Shown here piece after piece: positions 3,011-30,764 of a DNA stretch of 64,000 bases. A program made the position numbers and the translations under genes. The stretch lies in contig NZ_JABKDD010000005.1 of assembly GCF_013623905.1 (NCBI RefSeq), positions 124,001 through 188,000 of the forward strand, in the 5' to 3' direction. The notes beneath the pieces were generated by a model. The model did not search any database. It had not been told where the DNA came from and was given only the letters and a program-made list of their open reading frames with translations. This DNA comes from Brevibacterium sediminis (GTDB lineage Bacteria > Actinomycetota > Actinomycetes > Actinomycetales > Brevibacteriaceae). Within the stretch, counting starts at the first letter, position 1, and every line of letters starts with the position of its first letter.

Positions 3011-3048
3011 CTGCGCAGTTCATGCACTATTGTTGCGCAAATCACGCA
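3011..3048. promoter_or_regulatory. tandem candidate DeoR operators before the first Nramp-like gene
   Basis: Two 16-mers of the form YTGCGCA-N3-CRYGCA lie at 3011-3026 (CTGCGCAGTTCATGCA) and 3033-3048 (TTGCGCAAATCACGCA). Their starts are 22 bp apart, about two helical turns. Each is a 9-bp direct repeat of GCGCA-like half sites, the layout common for DeoR-family regulators. The same motif precedes four other units of the region. The rest of 2904-3159 shows no gene. Confidence 0.6.
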
Positions 3049-3159
3049 TTCGATGGCACACTTGCATGAGCCGTGCCGACCGGGCCGTCGTCCTTCGATT
3101 CGCTCCGAGGCACCGGCACGAACAACGGACAGATCCACCTTCGTGCAAGGAAGCCGAGT

Positions 3160-4593
3160 ATGACCGCGCAGAACATCGACCGGGACGACCGCGCAGGCGC
3201 CGACGCCGCCGTCGACCCCTACCATCTCGACCCCAAGGACGTGCTCGAACCGCCCACGACCTTTGCGGGCAAGCTCAAGTACCTCGGTCCCGGTCTTGTC
3301 ATCTCGGCCGCCGTCATCGGCTCCGGCGAACTCATCACCACCACGGCGCTCGGGGCCAAAGCCGGATTCGTCCTCCTCTGGCTCGTCATCATCTCCACCG
3401 CGGTCAAGGTTTGGGTCCAGCTCGAGCTCGCGCAGTGGACCATCCTCTCCGGCAAGCCCGCGCTCGAAGGCTACGGCCACGTCGGTCCCCGCCTCATCGG
3501 GCGTGCCGGGTGGATCAACCTGCTGTGGATCCTCATGGACTTCGCGAAGGTCCTCCAGCGCGGCGGCATCATCGGCGGTGCCGTCGCTGCACTGAGCATC
3601 ATGCTGCCCGTCTTCGGCGAGCCGCTCTCGACTCCGTCTCTCGTCTTCTGGACGGTCGTCTCGCTTGCGGTCGTCATCGCCCTGCTCGTGACGAACAGGT
3701 ACAGCATCGTCGAGAAGTTCTCCGTCGGCGCGGTCATCATCTTTACCGTCTCCACCGTCGGACTCGCAGTATCGCTGCCCTTCACCGACTTCGCCTACAC
3801 CTCGGCGGACGTCATGAGCGGACTGACCTTCGCCATTCCCGCCGGCACCCTGGGCTTCGCGGTCGCGATGTTCGGCATCACCGGCGTCGGCGCCGACGAG
3901 ATGACGACATACACCTACTGGTGCCTCGAAAAGGGCTACGCCCGCTACACCGGTCCGAACGACGGCACCGCGGAACGCGCCCGCCGCGCCCGCGGCTGGA
4001 TCTCGGTGATGCGCACGGACGTGCTCGTCTCCTGGATCGTCTCGACCGTGTGCACGATGTCCTTCTACGTCATCGGCGCAGCCATCCTCCACCCGCAGAA
4101 CCTCGTGCCCGAGGGCAACGACATGATCACCACGCTGTCGTCGATGTACTCCTCGACGATGGGTGAAGCCGGACACTGGATCTTCCTCATCGGCGCCTTC
4201 GCCGTCCTCTTCTCGACCTTCATCGCCTCGACCGCGAGCGTGCCCCGGCTGTGGACGAACACGGTGTCCATCCTCGGCGTCTTCGAATGGGAGAACACCC
4301 TCACCCGTGGCCGCATCATCCGTGTGCTCACCGTGGTCTTCCCGATGATCTGGGCACTGAGCTACCTCATCATCCAGTCCCCGGTGATCATGGTCCAGAT
4401 CGGCGGTGTGGCCAGCGGCGTCTTCCTCGTCGCCGTCGTCATCGCCGTCTGGTACCTTCGCTCCCGAGAGGTGCCGGCCGAGTTCAAGTCCAACCACTTC
4501 TTCACGGTGATGCTCGTCTTCGCCTCCCTGGCGATCGGCCTGCTGGGCATCTACACCGTGTTCGAGACCTTCGGAATCGAGATCGGAGCCTGA
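3160..4593 (+). CDS. Nramp-superfamily transporter without the metal motif (A)
   Basis: Membrane transporter of 477 residues with about 11 hydrophobic segments, related to Nramp (SLC11) proteins. The first helix reads GPGLVISAAVIGSGELIT: the position of the metal-binding DPGN motif is occupied by GSGE, and the helix 6 motif (normally MPH) reads VGADEMTT. Loss of these ligands argues against manganese or iron transport. The start is ATG 3160, with AAGGA 8 nt upstream. An upstream in-frame start at 3073 would add a non-hydrophobic stretch with no conservation. The stop codon overlaps the start of the 2-hydroxyacid dehydrogenase (TGATG), so the two are co-translated and the cargo is probably the hydroxy acid handled by that enzyme. 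That assignment is inference. Confidence 0.85.
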   Translation: MTAQNIDRDDRAGADAAVDPYHLDPKDVLEPPTTFAGKLKYLGPGLVISAAVIGSGELITTTALGAKAGFVLLWLVIISTAVKVWVQLELAQWTILSGKPALEGYGHVGPRLIGRAGWINLLWILMDFAKVLQRGGIIGGAVAALSIMLPVFGEPLSTPSLVFWTVVSLAVVIALLVTNRYSIVEKFSVGAVIIFTVSTVGLAVSLPFTDFAYTSADVMSGLTFAIPAGTLGFAVAMFGITGVGADEMTTYTYWCLEKGYARYTGPNDGTAERARRARGWISVMRTDVLVSWIVSTVCTMSFYVIGAAILHPQNLVPEGNDMITTLSSMYSSTMGEAGHWIFLIGAFAVLFSTFIASTASVPRLWTNTVSILGVFEWENTLTRGRIIRVLTVVFPMIWALSYLIIQSPVIMVQIGGVASGVFLVAVVIAVWYLRSREVPAEFKSNHFFTVMLVFASLAIGLLGIYTVFETFGIEIGA

Positions 4594-5537
4594 TGCGCCT
4601 CACCGTCCTCACCCCGTCTTTCGGCAAGCAGTCGAATACCCCTCGCGCTCGCGCAGACGAGCTCGGCCTCGACCTCGACTACCGGACCGAGAATCATCCC
4701 AAATCCGGGCAAGACCTCATCGAGACGATCTCCGGCGCCGAGGCGGTCCTCGTCGGTCTCGATCGGATCAACGCCGAGGTGCTCGCCGCCTGTCCCGACC
4801 TCAAGGTCGTCGCGAAGCACGGAGCCGGAGTCGACAACATCGACCTGGACGCCGCCGCTGCCGCCGGAGTCAGGGTCGTCAACACTCCCGGAGCGAATGC
4901 CGAGTCCGTCGCCGACCTCACGCTCGGGCTCCTCATTATGGGCGCCCGCCGGATTCGCGCCGCCGAGGATTCGCTGCGCACCGGCGAGTGGGGCGTATTC
5001 TTCGGTTCGCAGCTGAGCGGCAAACGCCTCGGCATCCTCGGCTTCGGCCGCATCGGGCGGGAGGTCGCGAAGCGTGCCGCAGGATTCGGCCTGAGCATCG
5101 CCGCATACGATCCGTACGTCCCCGATGAGGCCATCGCCGAGGCGGGGGCCGAGCCCCAGAACCTCGCCGAGGTGGTCGCAGGGTCCGATTTCCTCACCCT
5201 CCACCTGCCCGGTGGCGACGAGCCGCTGCTCGATGCCGAGCTTCTCGCCACGATGCCCAAGGGTGCCGGGCTCATCAACGCGGCCCGTGGCGGGCTCGTC
5301 GACGAGGCAGCTCTGGCCACGGCTCTTGAGTCCGGGCGGCTGTCATTCGCCGCCCTGGACGCCTTCGCCAAGGAACCGCCGGCGGCGGACGATCCGCTGC
5401 TCTCCGCGCCGAATCTCATCGCCACCCCGCACATCGGCGCCTACTCGGATATTGCGAACGCGAACATGGGAACCTGGGCCGTCGAAGACGTCGTCCGGGT
5501 GCTGCAGGGCGAAGAGCCCCGCTTCCCCGTCGCCTGA
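4593..5537 (+). CDS. D-isomer-specific 2-hydroxyacid dehydrogenase
   Basis: Cytoplasmic NAD(P)-dependent dehydrogenase of the phosphoglycerate/hydroxypyruvate reductase family, interconverting a 2-hydroxy acid and a 2-oxo acid. The 314 residues are complete: catalytic-domain halves flank a Rossmann domain with GILGFGRIG (about 147-155), the substrate-binding HGAGVDNID near 76, catalytic Arg in NAARGGLVDE, and the general-acid His in TPHIGAY near 277. There is no C-terminal ACT domain, so it is not a SerA-type biosynthetic enzyme. Translation is coupled to the Nramp-like gene by a one-base stop/start overlap. The tandem DeoR-type sites at 3011-3048 would control both genes. Confidence 0.92.
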   Translation: MRLTVLTPSFGKQSNTPRARADELGLDLDYRTENHPKSGQDLIETISGAEAVLVGLDRINAEVLAACPDLKVVAKHGAGVDNIDLDAAAAAGVRVVNTPGANAESVADLTLGLLIMGARRIRAAEDSLRTGEWGVFFGSQLSGKRLGILGFGRIGREVAKRAAGFGLSIAAYDPYVPDEAIAEAGAEPQNLAEVVAGSDFLTLHLPGGDEPLLDAELLATMPKGAGLINAARGGLVDEAALATALESGRLSFAALDAFAKEPPAADDPLLSAPNLIATPHIGAYSDIANANMGTWAVEDVVRVLQGEEPRFPVA

Positions 5538-5607
5538 CCGATACGTCGATCAGCTCAGTTCCCCTCTGCCGGCTCGGCTGTCGACTCCGGCGCGTCCAAG
5601 CGCTGAT

Positions 5608-6831
5608 TCAGATTTCGTTGGCGAGCAGGAACTCAGGGAGTCTGCGATGTTTGATTCCATTCACGTTTCCTCCGACAAGCGGGTCGAGTGTCAGCAGGTA
5701 TTTCGGATGGTTGTCCGCAATCGCTTCGAGCGGCCGATGTTCTCGGTGGCGGGTATCCTCAGTCGCGATCGTCGTGGCCACCTGGATGTAGACGACCTCG
5801 TCGGCACGCTGAGCCACAAAATCGACTTCGGCTGTTCCGATCCGACCGATGGTGACCTCGTAGCCGCGTCGACGCAGCTCCATCCAAACGATGTTCTCCA
5901 GCACTCCCGGCAGACGCTGGTCCGAGTAGCCGAACAGGGCATTGACGATGCCATGATCGCCGACGAAGTGCTTCTCATCTGTCGCGAGGATGGCCCTGCC
6001 GTGCAGATCGAACCGAGGAACTCGTGCGATCACGAAGGCTTCGGACAGTGCCGTCAGATAGTTGAGCACGGTCTCATGGCCGATCGACCGGCGCTGAGAC
6101 TTCATGAAGTCGGCGACACCTCGAGCGGAGAACGGATTGCCGACATTGTCGATCGCGAATGCGGCGACGCGTTCGAACATATCAGCGTCACGGATCCGAT
6201 TCCTCGCGAGCACATCCCGGACGAGCGTGGACCTGTAGATGTCCATGATCATCGAGCGGGCGTCGATTTCGTCGAGCGGCAGCATGTGCACACCGGGGAA
6301 TCCGCCGAGGCGCAGATAGCGTGTGAACTCGGCATCTGTGCCCGCCGTGTCGTCAGCGGCGAATGCCTCTCGGAACGACAGGTATTCGCGGAAGGACAGT
6401 GGCCATACTTCGATCGTCACGTACCGCCCGGCGATGTAGGTCGCGAGTTCGCCGGACAGCAGTCGCGAGTTCGACCCAGTGATGTAGAGATCAGTCCTCC
6501 CCTCGGCAAGAAGCGAATTGACCAGGCGCTCCCACTCGGTGACTTCTTGGATCTCATCGAGGAGGACGTAGGTGCGGCCCTCGCTCGGGAGCACATCCTT
6601 GAGGTGCGCATTGAGCGCTTGAGCCGATGCCAACGACGCATGTTCGAGGGAATCGAAGTTGAGATGCACGATGCGTTCGGGGTCGATGCCACGCGCGATC
6701 AGCCGCTCGACGACGAGGTCGAGGAGCCGCGATTTGCCGGACCGGCGCAATCCGGTGAGCACTTTGACGACCGGAGCGTCGATGAACGATTCGAGCTTCT
6801 CGAGATACTTCGGCCTGTCGACGATAGACAT
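5608..6831 (-). CDS. AAA ATPase with DUF4143 C-terminal domain
   Basis: 407-residue stand-alone ATPase (AAA_14 plus DUF4143). Walker A GLRRSGKS is at 27-34, Walker B LLDEI at 90-94, a sensor-like TGSNS at 118-122, and the C-terminal half carries VDFVAQRADEVVYIQVA, which resembles a nuclease-fold core. The biological role of the family is not settled. The ATG is preceded by GAGGGGG at a spacing of 9 nt. The gene sits inside the DeoR sugar-acid locus, opposite to the dehydrogenase, and has three palindromes in front of it (6850-6947). Base composition is somewhat less GC-rich than its neighbours, consistent with a transferred cassette, but I see no boundary repeats. Confidence 0.88.
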   Translation of the reverse strand: MSIVDRPKYLEKLESFIDAPVVKVLTGLRRSGKSRLLDLVVERLIARGIDPERIVHLNFDSLEHASLASAQALNAHLKDVLPSEGRTYVLLDEIQEVTEWERLVNSLLAEGRTDLYITGSNSRLLSGELATYIAGRYVTIEVWPLSFREYLSFREAFAADDTAGTDAEFTRYLRLGGFPGVHMLPLDEIDARSMIMDIYRSTLVRDVLARNRIRDADMFERVAAFAIDNVGNPFSARGVADFMKSQRRSIGHETVLNYLTALSEAFVIARVPRFDLHGRAILATDEKHFVGDHGIVNALFGYSDQRLPGVLENIVWMELRRRGYEVTIGRIGTAEVDFVAQRADEVVYIQVATTIATEDTRHREHRPLEAIADNHPKYLLTLDPLVGGNVNGIKHRRLPEFLLANEI

Positions 6832-6849
6832 CGCACTACCCCCTCACTG

Positions 6850-6947
6850 TGGCGATCACAATCGCCGCACAGGTCGATCTGACCCATGGTGGCGATTATA
6901 ATCGCCACAATTTGTTGAGTGAAGGATTCTGGCGGTTGTAATCGCCA
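6850..6947. promoter_or_regulatory. three 18-bp palindromes at 40-bp pitch
   Basis: The central copy, TGGCGATTATAATCGCCA (6890-6907), is a perfect palindrome. The copies at 6850-6867 (TGGCGATCACAATCGCCG) and 6930-6947 (TGGCGGTTGTAATCGCCA) are imperfect. The starts are 6850, 6890 and 6930, exactly 40 bp apart, close to four helical turns, so all would face one side of the DNA. The nearest copy ends 19 bp before the ATPase start codon. They look like operators of this gene. No DNA-binding regulator is adjacent, so the ATPase itself or a distant factor would have to act. Confidence 0.75.
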
Positions 6948-6975
6948 CGGAACGGGCGGATCAGGTCAGCCTGTC

Positions 6976-7869
6976 TCAGGCCAAGCCGCGCTCCACGTCC
7001 GCGGCCACTGTCGCAGCGACCTGCTTCTTCGCTTCATCCGAGAGCGCGTTGAACGGCGCCCGGGCCGGGCCGAGGCCGAATCCGCGTTCGTTCGCAGCTG
7101 CCTTGACGACGGTGTTCGGGTTGCCGAGCGCGAGACAGTTGCGGATCGGGCGGATGCTGTCCTGTGCAGTGCGCGCAGCATCGGTGTCGCCGGCGACGAA
7201 CAGGTCGTAGATCGAGGCCATCGTCTGCGGGTAGATGTTCGCGATGCCGCTGATCCCACCGGCACCTCCTGCCAGCAGGGTCCAGAGGATGAGGGAGTCA
7301 TTGCCGGAGATGACGTCGAAGGTCTCGCGATCGGTGCGCTCGAGGTACTGCAGGATTGTGTCGAAGTTCCCGCTCGAGTCCTTGACTGCGGTGATGTTGT
7401 CCACGGCTGCGAGCTTTTCGAGCGTCGCCGGTGCCACGACATTGCCGGTGCGTGCGGGAATGTTGTAGACGATGACCGGAACGTCGACGGAGTCGGCCAC
7501 GGCCCGGAAGTGATTCTCGATCTCGACCTGCGAGGCGGCCGCGAAGTACGGGGTGATGATCGACAGCGCGTCGGCACCGGCCGCAGCGGCATCGGCGGCG
7601 ATCGCGATGGTCTCCCGGGTCGTTGCGGCTCCGGCACCGATGACAACGGGGACGGCGCCGGCCACCTCGTCGATGACGATCCGCGCGGCCTCGGCGCGTT
7701 CATCGGCGGACTGGGCGTAGAACTCACCGTTGGTGCCGAGGGCGAAGATGCCGTGGATGCCGGCGTCGAGCTGACGGCGGACATGGGCTCGCAGGGCCAC
7801 CTCGACGAGGTTCTCATCCCCGTCGAACGGGGTGGCGATAGCGGCGAGGATTCCTGAGATGGATGACAT
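6976..7869 (-). CDS. DapA-family aldolase/synthase
   Basis: Class I aldolase-type TIM barrel of 297 residues in the dihydrodipicolinate synthase/N-acetylneuraminate lyase superfamily. Key residues are visible: GTNGEF (45-50) for the carboxylate, Tyr135 in VYNIPARTG, and the Schiff-base Lys163 in AVKDSSGNF. The members in sugar-acid operons usually cleave or dehydrate 2-keto-3-deoxy acids; lysine biosynthesis is unlikely here. It lies 104 bp downstream of the aldo/keto reductase in the same direction and shares the DeoR-type control region at 9008-9044. The substrate is not determinable from sequence. Confidence 0.9.
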   Translation of the reverse strand: MSSISGILAAIATPFDGDENLVEVALRAHVRRQLDAGIHGIFALGTNGEFYAQSADERAEAARIVIDEVAGAVPVVIGAGAATTRETIAIAADAAAAGADALSIITPYFAAASQVEIENHFRAVADSVDVPVIVYNIPARTGNVVAPATLEKLAAVDNITAVKDSSGNFDTILQYLERTDRETFDVISGNDSLILWTLLAGGAGGISGIANIYPQTMASIYDLFVAGDTDAARTAQDSIRPIRNCLALGNPNTVVKAAANERGFGLGPARAPFNALSDEAKKQVAATVAADVERGLA

Positions 7870-7973
7870 GATTTCCCTTCGAACGGTTGGTGCAGCCGAG
7901 CCTGTGCAGGGTTGCGAGATCGGTGGAGACGGATGCGGGCCGGCAGCTCTGCCGACAGCTCTTGATTCGTGAG

Positions 7974-8954
7974 TCAGCGGTTGTACTTCGGCTGGGAACC
8001 GCGGATTGCGGCGGTGGCGTCATCGACGGCGGTGAGCACATCGGCCGGCAGCGGGCCTTTGGCGATCGCGGCGATATTGCCCTCGAGCTGGGAGACGCGG
8101 CTGGCTCCGAGCAGCAGGGCGGAGATTCCGGGTGCCTCGGCGACCCAGCGCAGGGCGAGCTCGGCCTGCGGGATCCCGGAATCGTCGGCGACGGCGGCAA
8201 AGGCCTCGACCGAGGCGAGGACGGAGTCGGAGAGGTAGCGCTGCGAGTACATCTCTGCCAGCACGGATCCCGAGAAACGGTCCCCCGTTCCGTCGGTCGA
8301 CGGGCGGCGGGCGAGCAGGCCCCCGGCCAGCGGGTTGTAGGCCATCGTTGCGATGCCGTGGGACTGTCCGCATTCGAGCCATTCGTCCTCGATCCGGCGG
8401 GCCAGGACGCTGTAGACGTTCTGCGCCACGACGGGGCTTGGAGCGCCCGCGCGCTCGGCGGCGGCGATGACGTCGACTGCCTGCCAGGCGGCGAAGTTCG
8501 AGATGCCCAGCGCGGTGATCTTGCCTTCGGCGCGCAGGGCGGCGATGGTCTCGAGCGTCTCGTCGAGCGAGGCCGCACGGTCGGGCTGGTGGAGATAGAA
8601 GAGGTCGATCGATTCGACGTCGAGGCGTCGCAGCGATCCTTCGACGCTCGCGCGCAGGCCGGCTGCGGACAGTGGCGAATGCTCGCCGGCGTCGGCGTGG
8701 GGCATTCCTGCCTTCGTCGCGAGCACGATCCGGTCGCGGTGCTTCTTCACCAGCGGCGAGATCAGGCTCTCGGTCGTCGACTTCGCATATCCGTTGGCGG
8801 TGTCGATGCCGGTGATCCCGGCCGCAACGGCCGCTTCGAAGACCTCGTGCGCTGCCGCTTCGGTCACCGTGTCGCCGAAGGTCATCGTGCCGAGCACCAG
8901 CCGGGACAGGGGGACGGAGACTCCGTCGAGCGTGATGGTCGAGTCTGTGGTCAA
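7974..8954 (-). CDS. aldo/keto reductase
   Basis: NADPH-dependent oxidoreductase of 326 residues with the AKR tetrad Asp51, Tyr56, Lys81 and His122 (DTANGY, TKAG, YLHQPD) and the C-terminal LLLGASRVSQL cofactor loop. It probably reduces or oxidises a sugar-derived aldehyde. The start is an unusual TTG: GAGGAG lies 6 nt before it and no nearer ATG gives the conserved N-terminus. It is first in a two-gene unit with the DapA-like gene and divergent from the kinase-PdxA gene. The 140-bp space between them holds the DeoR-type sites. Confidence 0.9.
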   Translation of the reverse strand: MTTDSTITLDGVSVPLSRLVLGTMTFGDTVTEAAAHEVFEAAVAAGITGIDTANGYAKSTTESLISPLVKKHRDRIVLATKAGMPHADAGEHSPLSAAGLRASVEGSLRRLDVESIDLFYLHQPDRAASLDETLETIAALRAEGKITALGISNFAAWQAVDVIAAAERAGAPSPVVAQNVYSVLARRIEDEWLECGQSHGIATMAYNPLAGGLLARRPSTDGTGDRFSGSVLAEMYSQRYLSDSVLASVEAFAAVADDSGIPQAELALRWVAEAPGISALLLGASRVSQLEGNIAAIAKGPLPADVLTAVDDATAAIRGSQPKYNR

Positions 8955-9007
8955 GGGAGTCTCCTCGTTGAGTGGGGCAGATCGTCAATACACTGATCTT
9001 CCCATTT

Positions 9008-9044
9008 GTGCGTGGATCGTGCAACGACTTGCGCATTTCGCGCA
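9008..9044. promoter_or_regulatory. candidate DeoR operators in the reductase/kinase divergent promoter
   Basis: A strong site, TTGCGCATTTCGCGCA, lies at 9029-9044. A weaker copy, GTGCGTGGATCGTGCA, is at 9008-9023, 21 bp earlier. The spacing matches the pair at 3011-3048. The sites are 54 bp upstream of the reductase start and 50 bp upstream of the kinase start and could repress both directions. Confidence 0.6.
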
Positions 9045-9094
9045 CACATGTCAGTGTAGAGGGTGTTCAGTCGGACCGGACGCAAAGGAGTGCC

Positions 9095-11611
9095 ATGTCA
9101 GCAGGCGAATCCGGTGTCCTGGTCATCGCCGACGATCTCAGCGGAGCCGCCGAGGTCGCCGCCACGCTCGATCCGGGTACCCCGATCGTTCTCACCCCGT
9201 CGAGTGCAGAGTCCGCGACCGGCTCAGATGACGCCATCGCCGAGGCGAACGCCGGCGCAGAATCCGATCGACCCTTCGCCGAGGCGGCCCACACCGATCC
9301 CCGGGACCTTGTCGTCGATCTCGACTGCCGTTATCTGCCGGCCGAGTCGGCCGGCGCCCGCACTTCGGCTGCGCTTCACGACTTCGGCTCGTCCCGCGCC
9401 ACACTCATCAAGGTCGATTCCCTGCTGCGCGGCAACATCCGCGCCGCGCTCGCTGCGGCCGTCGGCCACGCGAGCGGCCCCGTGATCTTCGCTCCGGCGC
9501 TTCCGCAGCAGAGCCGCACGGTCATCGGCGGAGTGCCCTTCGACAACGGAATTCGGCTGAGCAGCACCCGCGCCTGGAGCCTCGAGGACGGCAGCGCACC
9601 GGAGTTGCTTTCGGATCTGTGCCCCGTCCCCGCCCGCCATTTGGACCTCGACGAACTGCGATCGCTGCCCGGCACCAATGCTGCCGACGTCTTCGACGAC
9701 GCTGACAGGCTCGACGACGCTGACAGCCGCGACGCCGCTGTCAGTTCGGACGCCGCTGACAGCCGCGACGCCCCTGCCAGTTCGGAAGCCAGTGTCGACG
9801 TCTCGAATGTCGGCGTCGGCGGCGATCGCCTCATCACCGCCGACGCCGAGACGATGGAGGATCTCACCCGTATCGTCGCTCTCGCCGAGGCGACCTCGGC
9901 CATCCTCGTCGGCACTTCCGCGCTCGCGCGCGCCTTGGCCGAGCGTCGACGAGCCGGACTCACTGCGCCAAGCGACGCATCTGCCCTGGCCGATGCGGGT
10001 GACACAGCAGCTGAACGGCCCGACCCCTCATCATTTCCGCGCACGCCCACACGGGTCCTCACTCTGCTCGGCACCGCAGCGGAGAGGATCGAGACGCAGA
10101 TCGCACACCTGCGTGACCACTCGGACACTCGTGTGCTCGACTTTCCCGCCACAGAGGTAGCCGCGTGGGCCGACGATCCGCACAGTCTCGACGATTCCGC
10201 CGCACGCGTACGCGCGGCGCTGGCCGAGTCCCACCTCGTCGTCCGACTCACCGACACGGGAGCCTCCGTCGACCCTCGGCCGCTGCCAGGGCTCCTCGCC
10301 GAACTCACCACCCGTGCACTGTCCGGATTCGGTCCCATCGCCCTCGCAGCCGCCGGCGGCGAGACGGCACGAGCCGTGTTCGACCGCCTCGGCGTGCACC
10401 GGATCGAAACGATCCGCGAAATCCACCCGGGGGCGGTGCTGTCCACGGTCGGAACCGCCTCGGCGAGCATTGCCGACGACGTCGACCTCGCCTCCGTCGT
10501 CACCCGGCCCGGCGGCCAGGGCGGACCCGATTCCCTCACCCTCATCCACGCGGCTCTGAGCACCGGTGAGCCCACCACGACCACCGCGGCCACCGTCGCG
10601 AACCACGAAGGAGAGTCAATGAACGCGCTTCCCACAGTCGCAGTGACCATGGGCGACGGGGCCGGCGTCGGCCCCGAGATCTGCATCGCCGCCTGCCTCG
10701 ACCCCTCGGTGCTCGCCGTCGCCGCGCCCGTCGTCATCGGGGATGCCGCGCGACTCGAACAGGCCGCGCAGGTGCTCGGCACCGCGGTCGAGATCCGCCG
10801 CGTCGACTCCCCCGCCGAGGCCGAACACGTGCCCGGAGTCATCAACGTCATCGACCTCGCCCTCCTCCCGGCCGACCTGCCCTGGGGCGAACTCTCCCCC
10901 GTCGCCGGAGACGCCGCGTTCCGCTACATCGAACGCGCCGCGCAGCTGGCCATGTCCGGTGAGGTGCAGGCGATCTGCACGGCGCCGCTCAACAAGGAGG
11001 CCCTCCACTCCGCCGGGCACAAGTACCCCGGGCACACCGAGATGCTCGCTGCCCTCACCGGCACCGAGGAAGTCTCGATGATGCTCTCCTCCCCCAAGCT
11101 GCGCGTCATCCACGTGACCACCCACATCGGACTCATCGATGCCGTGGCGAAGATCCAGCCCGGCCTCGTTGAACGCACCGTCCGCCGCGGCCACGATGCA
11201 CTCGTCCGGGCCGGACTGGAACGACCGCACATCGGGGTGTGCGCGATCAACCCGCACGCCGGTGAGAACGGGCTCTTCGGCTACGGCGAAGAGGAGGAGA
11301 AGATCACTCCGGCGATCACGAAGCTGCGGGCCGACGGCATCGACGCCGTCGGGCCCCTGTCTGCCGACACCGCCTTCTTCCTCGCCGGGCGCGGCGACTA
11401 CGACCTCATCGTCGCGATGTACCACGATCAGGGCCATGGACCGATCAAGGTCCTCGGCATCGATGCCGGCGTCAACATCACCGTCGGCCTGCCGGTCATC
11501 CGCACCTCGGTCGATCACGGCACCGCGTTCGACATCGCCGGCACCGGCAAGGTCGACACCGAGTCGATGAGCGAGGCGATGCGTCAGGCTGCGGCTCTCG
11601 CCGTCGTCTGA
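9095..11611 (+). CDS. four-carbon acid-sugar kinase fused to PdxA-type dehydrogenase
   Basis: One uninterrupted 838-codon frame. Residues 1-508 are a DUF1537-family (OtnK/DtnK-like) sugar-acid kinase: N-terminal VIADDLSGAAE, and a glycine-rich nucleotide region in the C-terminal half. Residues 509-838 are a PdxA-like 4-phosphate dehydrogenase: TMGDGAGVGPEI, HVTTHIGL, NPHAGENGLFG and MYHDQGHGPIKVLG with the metal-binding histidines. In the known D-threonate route these two enzymes act in sequence, giving a 4-phosphate and then dihydroxyacetone phosphate plus CO2. The start ATG 9095 has AAAGGAG 4 nt upstream. Five 18-bp repeats (9698-9787) add an Asp/Ala/Ser-rich loop to the kinase. An internal SD and ATG at 10619 may also release free PdxA. 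A sequencing error at the junction is possible but would have to preserve the frame. Confidence 0.9.
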   Translation: MSAGESGVLVIADDLSGAAEVAATLDPGTPIVLTPSSAESATGSDDAIAEANAGAESDRPFAEAAHTDPRDLVVDLDCRYLPAESAGARTSAALHDFGSSRATLIKVDSLLRGNIRAALAAAVGHASGPVIFAPALPQQSRTVIGGVPFDNGIRLSSTRAWSLEDGSAPELLSDLCPVPARHLDLDELRSLPGTNAADVFDDADRLDDADSRDAAVSSDAADSRDAPASSEASVDVSNVGVGGDRLITADAETMEDLTRIVALAEATSAILVGTSALARALAERRRAGLTAPSDASALADAGDTAAERPDPSSFPRTPTRVLTLLGTAAERIETQIAHLRDHSDTRVLDFPATEVAAWADDPHSLDDSAARVRAALAESHLVVRLTDTGASVDPRPLPGLLAELTTRALSGFGPIALAAAGGETARAVFDRLGVHRIETIREIHPGAVLSTVGTASASIADDVDLASVVTRPGGQGGPDSLTLIHAALSTGEPTTTTAATVANHEGESMNALPTVAVTMGDGAGVGPEICIAACLDPSVLAVAAPVVIGDAARLEQAAQVLGTAVEIRRVDSPAEAEHVPGVINVIDLALLPADLPWGELSPVAGDAAFRYIERAAQLAMSGEVQAICTAPLNKEALHSAGHKYPGHTEMLAALTGTEEVSMMLSSPKLRVIHVTTHIGLIDAVAKIQPGLVERTVRRGHDALVRAGLERPHIGVCAINPHAGENGLFGYGEEEEKITPAITKLRADGIDAVGPLSADTAFFLAGRGDYDLIVAMYHDQGHGPIKVLGIDAGVNITVGLPVIRTSVDHGTAFDIAGTGKVDTESMSEAMRQAAALAVV
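9698..9787 (+). repeat. five 18-bp tandem repeats inside the kinase
   Basis: Units start at 9698, 9716, 9734, 9752 and 9770 and vary around GACGCTGACAGCCGCGAC. They encode the six-residue steps DADRLD, DADSRD, AAVSSD, AADSRD and APASSE, a hydrophilic loop between the two kinase lobes that is probably flexible. The 18-bp step preserves the frame. Confidence 0.75.
10605..11611 (+). other. internal translation start for the PdxA-type part
   Basis: At the domain boundary a good Shine-Dalgarno sequence (GAAGGAGAG, about 10608-10616) stands a few bases before ATG 10619, in frame with the upstream kinase. Starting there gives a 330-residue protein, the normal length of PdxA. The fused frame may therefore give both a fusion and a free dehydrogenase, or it is a recent loss of a stop codon between two cistrons. 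The protein resembles PdxA2 of threonate catabolism by context; vitamin B6 synthesis is less likely. Confidence 0.6.
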
Positions 11612-11714
11612 GCTCGGAAGGTCATCCGGCCGAGGCGAGGTGCGGTCCGCACAACGGAACACCGTGCCAGCGCCAAGGAGGTAGTGCGATCCGCGCGTCA
11701 CCGTTGTCTGAGTT

Positions 11715-11730
11715 CTGCGCGGTTCGCGCG
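11715..11730. promoter_or_regulatory. candidate autoregulatory DeoR operator
   Basis: CTGCGCGGTTCGCGCG matches the TTGCGCA-N3-CRCGCA motif of the region with changes at the last base of each half. It lies 47 bp before the DeoR start codon. Autoregulation would be typical for the family. Confidence 0.45.
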
Positions 11731-11777
11731 ATAATCCGCGATACAGTGGCGATCAACGGCAATCCGACAGGAGAGAC

Positions 11778-12563
11778 ATGAACGCAGGCGAACGTCGCGA
11801 GGAGATCCTTCAGCTGGCGCGCACCCAAGGTGAGATGAGTGTCGAGACTCTGTCGGAGATGCTCGGAGTCACCGCGTCGACGATCCGCCGGGATCTGGCG
11901 AAGCTCACCGATTCCGGCGAATTGGCCCGCACCTACGGCGGTGTCCTCGCTGTGCCCACCGAGGCGGAGACCACGCTGGCTGAACGGTCGCACGAAGCCC
12001 CCGAGGTCAAACGCGCGATCGGTTCCTGGTGTGCCAAGCAGGTGCCGGCGGGCTCGCATGTGCTCCTCGACGCAGGCACGACAACCGCGCAAGTTGCGCG
12101 CGGACTGCGCGAGACGTCCCCGCTGTCGGTCGTGTCGACCGGGTTGACATCGCTGCAGCAGATGGCTGATCTCCAGGGGGTCGAGTTCACCCTTCTCGGC
12201 GGCAGATATCGTCCCGTCAGCCAGGGCTTCATCGGCCCCATCACCGAGGCGGGGCTGGAGAAGTTCACGTTCGACTTCGCCTTCCTCGGTGCCGATGCCG
12301 TCACCGCTGAGGACGGTGTGTGCGAAGCCCTGCCCGAACAGGTCCGCCTCAAGGAACTGATGAGCCGCCGCGCCACCCACGTCTTCGTCGTCGCGCACGC
12401 TGAGAAGCTCGGCCAGCGGCCCTTCCATGCCTGGGCCGACCTCGGCAGCGGATGGACGCTCGTCACCGACGATTCGGCCGATCCGGCGCAGATCACACCG
12501 TTCGAAGAGCGCGGAATCGCCGTCGTCCGTGTCGACCAGATGGGCAATGCCGTACAGAACTGA
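11778..12563 (+). CDS. DeoR/GlpR-family transcriptional regulator
   Basis: 261-residue repressor: an N-terminal helix-turn-helix (residues 5-55, with VTASTIRRDLAKLTDSGELARTYGG, the DeoR signature) followed by the sugar-phosphate-sensing domain with LDAGTTTAQVA near residue 97 and FLGADAV near 172. These proteins usually respond to a phosphorylated sugar intermediate, here perhaps the product of the adjacent kinase. The ATG has CAGGAGAG 3 nt upstream. It follows the kinase-PdxA gene by 166 bp and carries its own motif copy. I infer that it controls the units with TTGCGCA-N3-CRCGCA sites from 3.0 to 15.5 kb. Confidence 0.93.
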   Translation: MNAGERREEILQLARTQGEMSVETLSEMLGVTASTIRRDLAKLTDSGELARTYGGVLAVPTEAETTLAERSHEAPEVKRAIGSWCAKQVPAGSHVLLDAGTTTAQVARGLRETSPLSVVSTGLTSLQQMADLQGVEFTLLGGRYRPVSQGFIGPITEAGLEKFTFDFAFLGADAVTAEDGVCEALPEQVRLKELMSRRATHVFVVAHAEKLGQRPFHAWADLGSGWTLVTDDSADPAQITPFEERGIAVVRVDQMGNAVQN

Positions 12564-12594
12564 CGGCACGCGAGCATATAGAAGCCCCGGGGGC

Positions 12595-13761
12595 TCAGCC
12601 CCAGAGTTTGCAGTCGGTGTGGACCTGGTCCTCGACTCCGGAGATCCACGCTTCGTCGAAGACGACGTGCCGGATCGCCCGTCGGGAGCCGTAGGCGTAG
12701 ACGACGTGGATGAGCCCGTCGGCATCGACGATGCCGTGCGGGTACTCCTGACGGCGATTGCTGCGTAGGTTGCCGTCACCGGAGAACCCGTCACCGGGCT
12801 CGATGACTCGACGCACCGGCCAGGTGCGGCCCTCATCGTTCGACACTGCGATGACGATCCGCATCCGTTCGTACGGCCAGACCACCTCGCCGGGTTCCGT
12901 GGCGACCTGGTGTTCGTTCGAGACGAGAGCGAGCATGCCCGAGGGCAGACGGAAGGCGCTGATACCGGCATTGTTGTTCGGCACCTCGGTGGCCTCGGGC
13001 ACCGACCAGGTCTCTCCTCCGTCGTCGGATCGGCTGAGGTAGACCCAGTCGGCGAAGCGTGAGCGGAAGAGGCTGACGAGGCGTCCCGGTTCGAGCTCGA
13101 CGATGTTCGGGTGGACCCGACCGACTGCCTCGGGGAACTCGACTTGTCTCCAGATCGATCCCTGATCCGTGGAGATCTGGACGACCGGTTGGTCGGAGCC
13201 GTTTTTCGAATCGTCGTCGAGGCACAGCCACTGAGTGTGCACCCACGTCCCGTCCTCAAGGACCTGGATGGGCTGCCGGCAGAACGTCCCCTCCCGGTCG
13301 AAGAGCGTCTCCGGTTCGCTCCAGCTCACTCCGTCGGCCGAACGGATCACTTTGACCACGGAGGTGTGCTGGAGGTTGAAGGTCTCGGGGACCCCGGACT
13401 GTCGCGACAGCTGGGAAGTATAGACGAGCCAGATCGTCCCGTCGGGGGAGGCGAAGAGACCGGGGTTCTGATCAGATCGGATCTCATCGTGGGTCACCGC
13501 CGCCGAGGCGGTCCACCGTCCCGTATCGACGTCGAATCGGGAGACGAGGATGTCGATGTCCTTGTTTCCCTCATCGCTGCCGCCGAACCAGGCGGCCAGG
13601 AGTCCGCCGCCGGGCAGGGACAGGATCGACGGCGCGTGGTTCGAGCGCCGATCGGTCGGGATCACCGCGGCCGCGGAACCGTCGTCCTCGAAGAAGCGGA
13701 GCCGGCCGTCAGCCGACGGTGCGGGAACTCGTTCGAGTGCGGGCTGGGACAGCAGTGTCAT
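12595..13761 (-). CDS. sialidase-family (BNR repeat) protein, cytoplasmic
   Basis: 388-residue six-bladed propeller of the exo-alpha-sialidase type. Asp-box-like turns are visible (SADGVSWSEP, STDQGSIW, SDDGGETWSVP, SNDEGRTWP), and Arg and Tyr residues of the kind found in sialidase active sites occur (RSNHAPSIL, YPHG). There is no signal peptide, so it acts on something already inside the cell, perhaps as a sugar-acid hydrolase or lyase. I chose ATG 13761 because GGAGGAG lies 7 nt before it; the upstream ATG 13776 overlaps that SD. It is transcribed after the second Nramp-like gene across a 128-bp gap holding two 36-bp repeats. True sialidase activity is unproven. Confidence 0.85.
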   Translation of the reverse strand: MTLLSQPALERVPAPSADGRLRFFEDDGSAAAVIPTDRRSNHAPSILSLPGGGLLAAWFGGSDEGNKDIDILVSRFDVDTGRWTASAAVTHDEIRSDQNPGLFASPDGTIWLVYTSQLSRQSGVPETFNLQHTSVVKVIRSADGVSWSEPETLFDREGTFCRQPIQVLEDGTWVHTQWLCLDDDSKNGSDQPVVQISTDQGSIWRQVEFPEAVGRVHPNIVELEPGRLVSLFRSRFADWVYLSRSDDGGETWSVPEATEVPNNNAGISAFRLPSGMLALVSNEHQVATEPGEVVWPYERMRIVIAVSNDEGRTWPVRRVIEPGDGFSGDGNLRSNRRQEYPHGIVDADGLIHVVYAYGSRRAIRHVVFDEAWISGVEDQVHTDCKLWG

Positions 13762-13800
13762 GGGTGTCTCCTCCATGTCGTGGCAGTGAAATCAAGGTAC

Positions 13801-13870
13801 GTAAGAGTGGGTCGCCTCGGCGGGATCGTTCGCACGGCAGCCGTGGGCCGCCTCGGCGAGGGAATCCCCG
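13801..13870 (-). repeat. two 36-bp repeat units between the Nramp-like and sialidase-like genes
   Basis: Read on the minus strand, CCTCGCCGAGGCGGCCCAC recurs 36 bp later as a variant ending GCGACCCAC; the conserved CGCCTCGG cores sit at 13813 and 13849. Between them is the perfect dyad CACGGC-A-GCCGTG (13833-13845). The array begins about 20 nt behind the Nramp-like stop codon, in transcription direction. It could act as a processing or attenuation hairpin inside the operon. Confidence 0.6.
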
Positions 13871-13889
13871 AACCGACGGTCCGGACTCA

Positions 13890-15263
13890 TCATCCGAACA
13901 CGGTCTGGAACATCGCGGGGATCTGCATGGCGATCTGGACGCCGACGACGATGGCGATGATGCCGAGGAGAAGCAGCAGTCCGGTCTGCCATTTCCGATT
14001 GACCGCGTAGGAGTGCATGTGCTTCTTCCGCGAGGTCAGCAGCAGGATGCACACGACGATGATCGGGAGGCTGAGCACGGTGGAGATCGCGGTGCCGACG
14101 ATGTTGAGCGAGATGAGATCCGGGGCGCCGGGGATCGTCGAGGCCAGGGGCAGGACGATGAAGACGATCGCCTGGATCCACCGGAAGGCGGGGTTCTCCT
14201 CGTCGCGGCCGAGGAACTTTCGCATCGACGGCACGGTGTGGTTGATGCCGTTGATGGCCAGCTGCGAGAAACCGCGCGACTGCGGCGGGAAGCTCGTCAT
14301 CGCGGCGAAGAAGATGCACATCCACAGCAGATACGGACCGACCGGGCCGACGGCGACCGAGAGCATGTGGGAGAGGTCGAATTCGTCGGCGATGGAGAAG
14401 CCGGGGTGGGCGGCACTGAATTCGGCGGCGACGATCCAGAACAGCAGGTTGATGATGAGCAACGGGGCCATGCCGGCGATGAGGTCGAACTGCTGAATCC
14501 TCCGGTACTTCGGTCCGACCCAGCCCTTGTCGCGCATGAACCCGGAATAGAGCAGGTTGGGCATATTGCCGGCGATCGTGCCGATGGTCGCCGAGGCGAT
14601 GACGATGGGGGCGAATGCCGAGGTGTTCTGCTCCTTCGGGATTTCGAAGGCCATGCCCTGGACGAAGCCGGCGATGTCGAAGGTGCCGATCTTGATGAGC
14701 GCGTAGACGAAGGCGATGATCATCGCGACCGAGGCGAAACGGGCGAAGTACTCGAGGACGACGAACTGCTTGCGCAGCATGACCAGCGACAGGGTGAGAG
14801 CGACGATGATGATCGCGCAGAAGAACCGGCCCCAAGAGCCGCCCCACTCACCGCCGGTGAGTTCGTGGAGGCCGACAGCAGCGGCGAGGAGGAAGGTGGC
14901 CTGGGTGATGAAGCCGGCGATGAGGACGACCGCGGCCATGATCCCCGGCAGCACCGGCGACAGGCGGGCGAATCCGTCGAGGATCTGCGTGTCTCCGTGC
15001 TTGTTCATCAGCGTGTACTTCGCGATGGACGAGATGATGAACGTGCGGGCGACGAGCGAGAGGATGAGCGTCCACAGCAGCGCATACCCGTAGGAGGCAC
15101 CCGAGACAGAGGAGCTGACGAGGTCGCCGGTGCCCAGGAAGGACATGGCCAGCACGAGACCGGGCCCGACCGAGGTGACGAGGCCGAGACCGCGCGGCAG
15201 CGGATTCTGCGCGGGCATCGAAGAGACAGAGCTGCGTTTCACGCTATGGACGTCGGCGGCCAT
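13890..15263 (-). CDS. Nramp-superfamily transporter without the metal motif (B)
   Basis: 457-residue membrane protein with about 11 hydrophobic segments, paralogous to the gene at 3160. Helix 1 reads GPGLVLAMSFLGTGDLVSS, so DPGN is replaced by GTGD; helix 6 reads IGTIAGNMPNLLYSGFM, closer to the classical pattern but without the MPH histidine. The ATG has GGGAG 7 nt upstream. It is the first gene of a unit with the sialidase-like protein, and a DeoR-type site lies at 15373-15388, 110 bp upstream. Two diverged Nramp-like paralogs in one regulon suggest uptake of two related organic acids, or uptake and export. Metal transport cannot be excluded without assay. Confidence 0.85.
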   Translation of the reverse strand: MAADVHSVKRSSVSSMPAQNPLPRGLGLVTSVGPGLVLAMSFLGTGDLVSSSVSGASYGYALLWTLILSLVARTFIISSIAKYTLMNKHGDTQILDGFARLSPVLPGIMAAVVLIAGFITQATFLLAAAVGLHELTGGEWGGSWGRFFCAIIIVALTLSLVMLRKQFVVLEYFARFASVAMIIAFVYALIKIGTFDIAGFVQGMAFEIPKEQNTSAFAPIVIASATIGTIAGNMPNLLYSGFMRDKGWVGPKYRRIQQFDLIAGMAPLLIINLLFWIVAAEFSAAHPGFSIADEFDLSHMLSVAVGPVGPYLLWMCIFFAAMTSFPPQSRGFSQLAINGINHTVPSMRKFLGRDEENPAFRWIQAIVFIVLPLASTIPGAPDLISLNIVGTAISTVLSLPIIVVCILLLTSRKKHMHSYAVNRKWQTGLLLLLGIIAIVVGVQIAMQIPAMFQTVFG

Positions 15264-15372
15264 GGCTGCACTCCCATGTGTAGATGGACAACTGGGTGAT
15301 CGCCCGGCGATTGATGCAGCGGTGGAGGCGCGTCATCATCGTGCGCGATCTTCGTAAAGACTAGCCCATTCA

Positions 15373-15388
15373 TGCGTGTTGTGCGCAA
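15373..15388. promoter_or_regulatory. candidate DeoR operator, Nramp-like B promoter
   Basis: Read on the minus strand the site is TTGCGCACAACACGCA, a full match to TTGCGCA-N3-CRCGCA. Towards the TauE-type gene there are two further partial copies, TTGCGCA at 15423-15429 and ACGCGCAGTCTGCGCC at 15447-15462. The 290-bp space 15264-15553 thus serves two divergent units and holds no gene. Confidence 0.55.
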
Positions 15389-15553
15389 GTGTTTTCGCGA
15401 AGAAGATGGTGAGTTGTTCGGTTTGCGCATAGAATAGGTGCTCAAAACGCGCAGTCTGCGCCGCACGGCCATTGTTGTGAGCGGCGAGTGCCGTCTGACC
15501 GGAGGCCCGCAGATGTCTGACCGTGGCGCCCACAGCGGAGGAATGAGGAATCG

Positions 15554-16282
15554 ATGGAGATCATCCAGTACCTGATCATCGGGATCGTGGTGCTGGGTTC
15601 AGCCTGCCTGCAGGGCTCCATCGGATTCGGCCTCGGCATGATCACCGCACCGGTGCTCGCGCTCCTGCGCCCCGACCTGCTGCCGTCCGCCCTTCTGCTG
15701 CTGGCCACCCTCACCTCATTCACGGCATTCGCCCGTGAGCGTCAGGACGTCGATTGGAAGCTCGTCGGCTGGGGCGCTCTCGGACGGCTGCCCGGAATCG
15801 CGATCGGCACCGCCGCCGTAGTGCTGCTGCCGGACTCCGGCCTGTCCCTGATGCTCGCGATCACAGTCCTCGCCGGCGCTGCATTCAGCCTGGTCGGCTG
15901 GTCACCGGCGGCCTCGCACCGCAATATGTTCTTCGCATCGTCGGTCTCGGGGATCTTCGGCACGGCCACGAGCATCGGCGGGCCCCCGATCAGCCTCATC
16001 ATGCGCTCGCTCGATCCGTCGTCGATGCGCTCGACGATGAGCGCCTACTTCACCCTCGGCAGCATCCTGTCTCTGGCGGGACTGACCATCGGCGGCGAGG
16101 TCGGCACCAGGCACCTCATCGCGGCGGCGTTCCTGCTGCCATTCATGCTCATCGGACTGTGGCTGTCGAACTTCGTCATCCGACGCGCCGACCGCAGGCT
16201 CCTCTACCGCCTCGCTGTCGGCTCTTCGATCGTCGGCGCGATCCTCGTCATCGCCGAAGTCGTTCGCTCTCATCTCGCCTGA
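15554..16282 (+). CDS. TauE/SafE-family membrane transporter
   Basis: 242 residues, about eight hydrophobic segments, in the sulfite exporter TauE/SafE family. The family repeat is visible near the N-terminus (GSACLQGSIGFGLGMITAPVLALL) and again in the second half (GIFGTATSIGGPPISLIM). Family members move sulfite, sulfoacetate or other organic anions. GAGGAATCG directly precedes the ATG. Its promoter shares DeoR-like half sites with the divergent Nramp-like gene, so it may export an acid made by this pathway. The cargo is inferred from context only. Confidence 0.85.
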   Translation: MEIIQYLIIGIVVLGSACLQGSIGFGLGMITAPVLALLRPDLLPSALLLLATLTSFTAFARERQDVDWKLVGWGALGRLPGIAIGTAAVVLLPDSGLSLMLAITVLAGAAFSLVGWSPAASHRNMFFASSVSGIFGTATSIGGPPISLIMRSLDPSSMRSTMSAYFTLGSILSLAGLTIGGEVGTRHLIAAAFLLPFMLIGLWLSNFVIRRADRRLLYRLAVGSSIVGAILVIAEVVRSHLA

Positions 16283-16341: not shown

Positions 16342-16407
16342 GTCTCCTGCGGGTGGATCCACCTCGAAACCTGCATGGAAATCAGGGCGGATCCACCCGC
16401 AGGATGC
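16342..16407. repeat. 66-bp inverted-repeat element, copy 2
   Basis: Matches copy 1 (2838-2903) at 59 of 66 positions, in the same orientation, with the GGGTGGATCCACC core arm and the same loop. The flanking CGGCCG-CGTCGTGTC just upstream is also shared. The 3' arm end has diverged (three changes in the last five bases). The 375-bp space 16283-16657 otherwise holds only the lipase promoter region. Confidence 0.8.
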
Positions 16408-20428: not shown

Positions 20429-20538
20429 GGTTTTCTCCTTCTGTTTTTTGCTGAAATCGGGGTTGGAGGCCAAGTGGACTCGGTGTCACTGGCTCACAGC
20501 GAAGTTACGACTGCGAGGCAGCCCTCGGCTGACCGGTG

Positions 20539-21939: not shown

Positions 21940-21992
21940 CGGTGGCTCCTCAACTTCATTGTCCAGAGAGGTGTTGATCGATTCGATTCCCA

Positions 21993-22030
21993 TTCATTCG
22001 GAATTACGTGCCGTAAATGAGACGAATGAA
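21993..22030. promoter_or_regulatory. nested inverted repeats upstream of the MHS transporter
   Basis: TTCATTCG (21993-22000) is mirrored by CGAATGAA (22023-22030). Inside lies TTACG-TGC-CGTAA (22003-22015). The position, 54-90 bp before the transporter start, suits an operator. The IclR gene nearby is the obvious candidate to bind, but this is inferred. Confidence 0.45.
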
Positions 22031-22108
22031 GCATAGCGTGAGCCGCTCAACCGTGCAAGCGGTCACATTTTTCGCCGGCAGAACAGCAAAATGAAGGCAG
22101 AAACACAG

Positions 22109-22146
22109 ACGCTCTCCCCAGCCGAGGAAGCGGCTGAGGAGAGCGT
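22109..22146 (-). terminator. terminator of the IclR gene
   Basis: ACGCTCTCC (22109-22117) pairs with GGAGAGCGT (22138-22146), with an inner CAGCCG/CGGCTG stem. On the minus strand it lies about 20 nt after the IclR stop and is followed by a T-rich stretch (CTGTGTTTCTG), as in an intrinsic terminator. Confidence 0.75.
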
Positions 22147-22165
22147 CGGGAACCTGGGACAGAAC

Positions 22166-22960: not shown

Positions 22961-23143
22961 TTGGGGCACTCCTCACTGGATGGAACATTTTCACTCCCAC
23001 TGAGACTACACGCCTCGCCCACCGCTGACAGCGCGTAAGCCGGTCGAATGATCCGCAGTCAGCATGTCCGCGTTTGCCGCTTTCAGCGTGCAGTCGACGT
23101 GCCTGCCGCGCTTCACAGCTGCCGTGCGGACGTTGTCATGCAG

Positions 23144-25428: not shown

Positions 25429-25476
25429 TGCTGGTTCCTTTCAGGAAGAATGACACCCCTCAGCGGACATCAATCT

Positions 25477-25600
25477 CATTAAGTAGGATTCACTTTAAAG
25501 CATTGAGAATGTGGTGTGCTTCACCGTAGCGTAGGCTAATGGCCAGCGCAACACTTTTTCTCAATGAACGCACCTGCTCCTAACGAATAGGACACGAAGA
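25477..25600. promoter_or_regulatory. divergent promoter with two TAGGA-type sites
   Basis: CATTAAGTAGGATTCACTT (25477-25495) and TAACGAATAGGACACGA (25581-25597) share a TAGGA core with two sites at 26798-26847. The first closely matches the inverted site at 26798-26817. Both lie between the MFS porter and the dehydratase genes. A common regulator, perhaps IclR, is suggested but not shown. Confidence 0.4.
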
Positions 25601-25612
25601 GAGGATTTCCTC

Positions 25613-26803: not shown

Positions 26804-26854
26804 ATTCCTATTTAATGCGATCCAGTTGCACTGAATAGGACTCAGTGTCATGAT
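26798..26854 (+). promoter_or_regulatory. promoter and operator before the SDR gene
   Basis: TTGCAC (26826-26831) and CATGAT (26849-26854), 17 bp apart, form a plausible promoter. Between and overlapping them is the dyad CACTGAATAGGACTCAGTG (26829-26847), with 6-bp arms. On the other strand, 26798-26817 reads CATTAAATAGGAATTTACTT, a near copy of 25477-25495. An operator covering the spacer would repress directly. Confidence 0.45.
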
Positions 26855-26892
26855 GGAGGAGCAACACATCTCGTCATAGGAGGCAAAGGCGC

Positions 26893-27801: not shown

Positions 27802-27830
27802 GCACGGCCACGATTATGAAAGGCACGACC

Positions 27831-30759: not shown

Positions 30760-30764
30760 GCATC

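Follow-up and report, generated by a model that had tools for sequence, protein, structure and literature searches.

A predicted local regulon of a DeoR-family protein, with paired palindromic operators, at an acid-sugar locus of Brevibacterium sediminis

Introduction

What could connect two Nramp-like carriers with a set of sugar-acid catabolic genes? This question is raised by a locus in a 64,000-nucleotide stretch of Brevibacterium sediminis DNA (contig NZ_JABKDD010000005.1, positions 124,001 to 188,000; the whole stretch is called the window below, and coordinates refer to it). The locus encodes the carriers NrampA and NrampB, a D-isomer 2-hydroxyacid dehydrogenase (HADH), a DapA-family aldolase/lyase, an aldo/keto reductase (AKR), a kinase fused to a PdxA-family dehydrogenase (kinase-PdxA), a DeoR-family regulator (DeoR), a BNR-type sialidase-fold protein and a TauE/SafE-family permease (TauE). 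With a probability of about 0.85, the answer is that the locus is a local regulon of its own DeoR-family protein, with paired operators that overlap the promoters. As a computational prediction, this regulon has good support. The operator sites, their conservation and phasing, their overlap with predicted promoters and their linkage to the genes were all obtained by computation. From this linkage and from co-occurrence we infer that DeoR is the protein that binds the palindromes.

Form and frequency of the predicted operator

The original prediction placed a motif, TTGCGCA-N3-CRCGCA, at a series of positions across the locus. A motif search of the window finds exact copies at 3033-3048 (+), 9029-9044 (+) and 15373-15388 (-), as had been proposed. 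The copies assigned to 3011, 9008, 11715, 15423 and 15447 turned out to be weaker or partial: there are two mismatches at 3011 and at 9009 (minus strand), three at 11715 (or two on the minus strand at 11716) and, in the region between NrampB and TauE, three at 15415 and two at 15438. As the motif is an imperfect inverted repeat, its strand carries no meaning. The aligned intergenic regions of up to 17 other Brevibacterium loci show the inverted repeat TGCG-N7-CGCA, so that a direct-repeat reading was rejected and the proposed unit had to be corrected to a palindrome. Once DeoR loci from other families of the order are added, the consensus TTGCGCR-N3-YGCGCAA emerges. Judging from these alignments, the operator unit is better read as this 17-bp palindrome, usually paired 21-23 bp apart, i.e. 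at two helical turns.

With up to three mismatches allowed, the window contains 53 motif matches where 55 are expected from shuffled DNA. There is thus no enrichment at this level, and the signal resides in the exact and the paired copies. The whole genome (4.17 Mb in 43 contigs) contains six exact copies, three of which are at the locus. At up to two mismatches the genome has 392 matches versus 201 with the reversed pattern; because of the GC-rich coding background, counting of single motifs at two or three mismatches is uninformative. The degenerate pattern TTGCGYRNNNYRYGCA has ten matches in the genome, including three at the locus that are all intergenic, and its reversed form has one. According to our own reading of the open reading frames, the remaining seven of seven matches lie inside coding frames, and the 4.17-Mb genome has no intergenic match to this pattern outside the locus. 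The motif is hence not equally common in other promoters, an outcome that would have refuted the original prediction, and a genome-wide regulon was rejected. The paired pattern TGCG-N7-YGCA-N5-9-TGCG-N7-CGCA occurs exactly twice in the genome, at window positions 3012-3048 and 9009-9044.

Conservation within Brevibacterium

The pair between AKR and the kinase gene, with its copies 21 bp apart, is kept in 18 of 18 Brevibacterium loci (window included). In the Brevibacterium alignments the copies of the NrampA promoter pair are 22 bp apart, the first copy being weak. Both distances reproduce the 21-22 bp spacings that had been noted earlier. The main site between NrampB and TauE is aligned in all 16 loci compared, and a weaker site 31-32 bp away from it is present in 15 of these 16 at no more than four mismatches. 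The extra copies proposed for the NrampB/TauE promoter next to this main site are weak, and the conserved site at 15341 had not been listed.

The gene set is kept in 15 of the 17 fetched Brevibacterium loci (in L034, NrampA is cut by the end of the stretch). A close DeoR orthologue (at least 73% identity) is present in 18 of 57 Brevibacterium genomes, window included. At this locus, 17 of these 18 carriers have the strict pair, and the eighteenth (G051) is one base off. Elsewhere, the strict pattern was found in five of the 39 non-carriers, and none of these matches resembles the carriers' pairs at this locus. A backwards control of the strict paired pattern gave two matches in all across the 57 genomes. 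In Brevibacterium album, NrampA-HADH with its operator pair is located away from deoR. Between the window NrampA and its counterpart in Brevibacterium oceani the identity is 99%.

Recurrence in other genera

Loci beyond those of the genus were scored with the consensus TTGCGCRNNNYGCGCAA, which was fixed after the same-order loci and before the named loci were examined. A scored pair consists of two copies, each with at most three mismatches and at most five summed, 20-24 bp apart. The same-order set comprises 20 of the 28 non-genus genomes found, and the named set the best 80 of at least 547 relatives, 72 of these 80 being non-Brevibacterium NrampA loci. Open reading frames in the fetched loci were called with our own GC-position heuristic and neighbours were clustered by blastp linkage; this clustering missed HADH in at least three loci, where it was recovered by tblastn.

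Scored pairs are present in 17 of 17 fetched Brevibacterium loci (shuffled mean 0), in 10 of the 20 same-order DeoR loci (shuffled mean 0) and in 26 of the 72 named non-Brevibacterium NrampA loci. In the named set, the pair was found in 22 of 31 loci with DeoR, kinase-PdxA or HpaI clusters (shuffled mean 0.05) and in 4 of 41 loci without them (shuffled mean 0.1). When the neighbours were rechecked by tblastn, the pair was present in 26 of the 37 named loci with a DeoR, kinase, PdxA, AKR or HADH homologue versus none of the 35 without. The reversed consensus yielded zero loci in every group, and 20 permuted palindromes gave averages of 0.05, 0.1 and 0.25 loci with a maximum of two. No scored pair was found at eight loci of DeoR paralogues (39-44% identity, stretches shorter than 4 kb). 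Besides Brevibacterium, the pair-bearing named genera are Pseudoclavibacter, Arthrobacter, Frigoribacterium, Glycomyces, Saccharopolyspora, Streptomyces, Tamaricihabitans and an uncultured Propionibacterium. Outside Brevibacterium, 16 of the 22 named DeoR-bearing loci have the scored pair. These findings are in agreement with the earlier proposal of a DeoR regulon that unites the Nramp-like carriers with catabolic genes, as the sites are kept at the same promoters and recur beside homologous genes elsewhere.

Frequent neighbours in the other genera are HpcH/HpaI proteins, and an oligopeptide-type ABC transporter is found at some loci. Two gammaproteobacterial loci, those of Pseudomonas dryadis and P. 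flavescens (L093 and L094), contain DapA, kinase-PdxA, HADH, NrampA (68-71% identity) and a DeoR-family gene; perhaps this set was transferred horizontally and its regulator site has changed.

Predicted promoters and helical phasing

The operator sites and predicted promoter elements of the window are as follows.

3011..3027, first (weak) palindrome of the NrampA operator pair, CTGCGCAGTTCATGCAC
3033..3049, second palindrome of this pair, at a distance of 22 bp; its TTGCGC (3033-3038) is the predicted -35 box
3057..3062, + strand, extended -10 element predicted for the NrampA-HADH promoter (TG-n-CACACT)
9008..9024, first palindrome of the AKR/kinase operator pair
9029..9045, second palindrome of this pair, at a distance of 21 bp; its TTGCGC (9029-9034) is the predicted -35 box
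9052..9057, + strand, extended -10 element predicted for the kinase promoter (TG-n-CAGTGT)
11715..11731, putative site of autoregulation before deoR, present in 6 of 18 species
15341..15357, weak conserved palindrome at a distance of 31 bp from the main site between NrampB and TauE
15372..15388, main palindrome between NrampB and TauE
15414..15430, weak site, conserved mainly in its GCGCA half
15438..15454, weak site, in the closest relatives only

The TTGCGY of the downstream palindrome lies 17-18 bp from an extended -10 element (TGnNANNNT) in 18 of 18 kinase promoters and in 14 of 15 NrampA promoters. In the latter count L027 is the exception, being without the strict form, and L034 was excluded on account of its truncated NrampA. 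Spacings of 15-80 bp between copies deviate by no more than 2 bp from multiples of 10.5 bp in 38 of 46, 12 of 14 and 37 of 37 cases, where the expected fraction is 0.41 and the counts are inflated by related loci. That most spacings lie on helical-turn multiples fits the earlier suggestion of dimers or tetramers on one face of the DNA.

Proposed mechanism and its alternatives

We infer repression rather than activation, together with the operon structure, the inducer, the substrate and the transport function, and propose the following sequence of events. Without inducer, DeoR dimers would occupy the paired 17-bp palindromes on the same side of the helix; two phased dimers suggest that they probably form a tetramer. 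The bound repressor would block RNA polymerase since TTGCGC doubles as the predicted -35 box, which makes occlusion the simplest mechanism. The promoters blocked in this way would be that of NrampA-HADH, the divergent promoters of DapA-AKR and kinase-PdxA-DeoR, and the divergent promoters of NrampB-BNR and TauE. The DeoRC domain and the general properties of the family, whose effectors are typically sugar phosphates, point to a phosphorylated acid-sugar intermediate, made by the kinase, as the likely inducer. Induction would then result in the uptake of acid sugars by the Nramp-like carriers and in their breakdown, the last steps of which would be phosphorylation and oxidation by the kinase-PdxA protein.

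A number of observations weigh against this reading. Under the 17-bp consensus score the pair at 9008 is the sole passing pair in the window; the NrampA pair fails because its first copy then has four mismatches. In 14 of 16 loci the TANNNT box of NrampB is 19 bp away, which is a poor spacing. The site before deoR, another part of the original prediction, is indeed present in the window and in L027-L031, but it is absent from the other 12 of the 18 species, and deoR autoregulation as a general feature was rejected. Two DeoR carriers (G005 and G028) also have one strict pair elsewhere, again unlike the carriers' pairs at this locus. The other 10 of the 20 same-order DeoR loci and 6 of the 22 named DeoR-bearing loci are without a scored pair, as are the two Pseudomonas loci, whose DeoR-family neighbour has 39% identity; conversely, in 10 of the 26 named loci with a pair no DeoR is seen in the stretch examined. 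Loci of one genus are related, so the counts do not represent independent events. The consensus was widened on seeing the same-order loci and the 20-24 bp window was set on seeing the named loci; given this order of choices, it is the operator sequence, and not the spacing, that the named loci test afresh. Furthermore, the available passages on VdtR, a DeoR repressor of the erythronate/L-threonate DUF1537-kinase operon of Brucella, state that its binding is unchanged by L-threonate or D-erythronate themselves (PMC10580937).

Some of these observations would be expected if the palindromes were bound by another regulator encoded elsewhere and the DeoR of the locus controlled something else. The motif cannot be read off DeoR, as the recognition-helix residues STIRRDL, which are typical of DeoR proteins in general, are invariant in the DeoR alignment. 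The pair-bearing named loci with no DeoR in the stretch examined and the Brevibacterium album pair, which sits away from deoR, are also compatible with such a regulator. However, operator and DeoR co-occur in the genus and in 16 of the 22 named loci with DeoR, and a more broadly acting regulator is unlikely because the genome has no other intergenic matches. Hence we judge this explanation to be quite improbable. That DeoR acts as an activator, or by looping between promoters, is an unlikely alternative to simple promoter occlusion: it would accommodate the presence of sites at several promoters, which in the window are separated by as much as about 12 kb, and the helical phasing of copies inside a promoter, but the sites extend over the predicted -35 box and spacer, a position usual for repression, and the nearest characterised case, VdtR, is described as a repressor in the passages available (PMC10580937). 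Virtually no weight can be given to the idea that the motif reflects chance or the composition of GC-rich DNA. The window count at three mismatches, which equals the shuffled one, is what this idea would predict, but the exact, paired and conserved copies far exceed their controls. Occlusion by the DeoR of the locus is thus the reading that we retain.

Genes of the locus

The genes under the predicted control, and that of the regulator itself, are listed below.

3160..4593, + strand, NrampA, Nramp-like carrier with GSGE in place of DPGN in transmembrane helix 1 (TM1)
4593..5537, + strand, HADH, directly downstream of NrampA
6976..7869, - strand, DapA-family aldolase/lyase
7974..8954, - strand, AKR
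9095..11611, + strand, in-frame fusion of a DUF1537-type acid-sugar kinase and a PdxA-family dehydrogenase
11778..12563, + strand, DeoR-family regulator (HTH_DeoR and DeoRC domains)
12595..13776, - strand, sialidase-fold (BNR_2) protein, co-directional with NrampB and downstream of it
13890..15263, - strand, NrampB, second Nramp-like carrier, with GTGD in TM1
15554..16282, + strand, TauE/SafE-family permease

The two domains of DeoR (HTH_DeoR 58.7 bits, DeoRC 123.1 bits) and those of the kinase (SBD_N 76.9 bits, NBD_C 49.0 bits) score above both cut-offs. The kinase is far under the substrate-specific models for D-threonate kinase (50 bits, cut-off 450) and 3-oxo-tetronate kinase (38 bits, cut-off 350), and our best guess for its substrate is a four-carbon acid sugar. 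In comparison with the PDB, the PdxA part matches 4jqp best (496 bits, named PdxA), followed by 2hi1 (322 bits) and 6e85 (310 bits), which are PdxA2 / D-threonate 4-phosphate dehydrogenase chains, and by 1ps7 (192 bits, named PdxA). Among the family models scored, the general pdxA model alone is above its cut-off for this part. Sialidases in the PDB match the BNR_2 protein only weakly.

The kinase part of the fusion (9095-10618) diverges far faster than its neighbours, with 42-49% identity in L032-L043 where that of PdxA is 86-89%, and it contains a repetitive stretch rich in Asp, Ala and Ser. Between HADH and DapA, an AAA_14/DUF4143 ATPase gene (5608-6831) lies on the opposite strand. Of the 18 loci, only the window and L027-L029 have it, with a two-piece match in L028 and a partial one in L029, and it looks like an insertion foreign to the regulon. 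A 46-bp repeat flanks the locus at either end, with both copies oriented alike (2848-2893 and 16352-16397). Its hairpins are very stable (-46.7 and -42.5 kcal/mol; z -7.8 and -7.1), these are its only two copies in the genome at up to three mismatches, and the stretches of 17 relatives contain one diverged copy (L030). Further along the window, at 19208-31724, ORF translations alone suggest a second sugar-acid cluster with enolase-superfamily proteins, major facilitator superfamily (MFS) permeases, an IclR-like regulator, an FAH-like hydrolase, a short-chain dehydrogenase/reductase (SDR) and an aldehyde dehydrogenase.

Metal or acid sugar as cargo of the Nramp-like carriers

Both carriers match the Pfam Nramp domain PF01566 (NrampA 50.6 bits, NrampB 81.3 bits, cut-off 29.8). 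The AlphaFold model of NrampA (mean pLDDT 72.6, pTM 0.74) has DraNramp 6d91 as its nearest structure (TMq 0.67, 18% identity). The TM1 metal motif DPGN, taken from the alignment to 10ky, is replaced by GSGE in 17 of 17 aligned NrampA sequences, and the window NrampB has GTGD at this position. Near the MPH region of TM6, over which the alignment is weak, NrampA has GVGADEM.

Among the 80 loci kept, HADH is found in the same stretch as 33 of the 36 non-Brevibacterium NrampA homologues with at least 60% identity; the three loci without it (L108, L123 and L127) start close to or directly at the end of a contig. Of these 36 homologues, 28 have two or more of AKR, HADH, kinase-PdxA, DeoR, HpaI and DapA within 8 kb. 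For homologues with 50-59% identity, HADH was found in 4 of 34 loci and at least two acid-sugar genes in 1 of 34, which confines the acid-sugar reading to the closer NrampA subfamily. A search of the phylum for NrampA found it in 8 of 396 genomes. A Rubrobacter homologue (L072, contig of L134) adjoins a galactarate/altronate dehydratase. Ten distant homologues, nine of them from Saccharopolyspora (L128, L129, L132, L135, L138-L140, L142, L144 and L166 in all), lie near a protein cluster whose L144 member is a molybdopterin-type oxidoreductase, a neighbourhood hinting at a different organic substrate.

The Nramp-like proteins might carry a divalent metal needed by the pathway enzymes and not an acid sugar. 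The match to the Pfam Nramp domain and the proximity of the NrampA model to a metal Nramp agree with this, and PdxA-type enzymes use metal. However, the altered TM1 motif of both carriers and the company that the closer NrampA homologues keep with HADH and other acid-sugar genes argue against metal as the cargo, which we regard as doubtful. An acid-sugar carrier in the Nramp fold is a plausible reading of NrampA. More tentatively, and with somewhat less than an even chance of being correct, NrampA and NrampB would represent a branch of the Nramp family for acid sugars instead of metals, switched together with the catabolic enzymes by DeoR via phased double palindromes across several actinobacterial families.

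The open-licence literature in PubMed Central, with subscription journals and regulon databases outside the scope of the search, yielded no listed paper describing this operator, acid-sugar carriers of the Nramp type or a link between Nramp and acid-sugar genes. The present analysis provides a precise candidate operator for a DeoR regulator of Brevibacterium and other actinobacterial genera, along with the promoters predicted to be controlled. It also proposes a substrate class for proteins that are annotated as divalent-metal transporters yet are without the TM1 metal motif. If the transport prediction is true, a set of actinobacterial "Nramp family divalent metal transporter" annotations is wrong, and the cargo of non-metal Nramp relatives becomes a directly testable question.

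Comparison with known systems

In its enzymes, the locus resembles the pathway of D-threonate kinase and D-threonate 4-phosphate dehydrogenase (DtnK-PdxA2), as the PdxA domain matches 2hi1 and 6e85 and the kinase has the DUF1537 domains SBD_N and NBD_C. It differs from this pathway in that the kinase reaches just 50 of the 450 bits required, kinase and PdxA form one reading frame, and there are extra DapA, HADH, AKR and BNR genes. SugR of Corynebacterium is reportedly a DeoR repressor of phosphotransferase system (PTS) genes. Like the DeoR of the locus, it is an actinobacterial DeoR protein of carbohydrate genes, but its targets differ.

The carriers can be likened, by their sequence features, to the "orphan" Nramp/SLC11 outgroup within PF01566 and to the Mg transporters NRMT, all of which, as far as the available passages describe them, are Nramp-related proteins without the metal-site residues. 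The outgroup is reported to have diverged at the metal site, and those passages name no non-metal substrate (PMC9606685, PMC10606218, PMC4072509); one outgroup-like protein is stated to transport manganese (PMC4072509). Unlike for the orphan outgroup, gene context and operators point to an organic substrate for NrampA and NrampB.

In its regulation, the nearest system is Brucella VdtR, which shares with this locus a DeoR-family regulator in an acid-sugar cluster with a DUF1537 kinase. VdtR binds several fragments of one promoter, which suggests several binding sites, and the passages available report neither a palindrome nor a consensus (PMC10580937). The operon as given there consists of ltnD, otnK, otnI, denD, otnC and an MFS gene, and a PdxA fusion and Nramp-like carriers are not named in these passages (PMC10580937). 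In summary, the control of a DUF1537-kinase operon by a DeoR protein was already known from Brucella VdtR, and the regulon predicted here is a further case of this kind.

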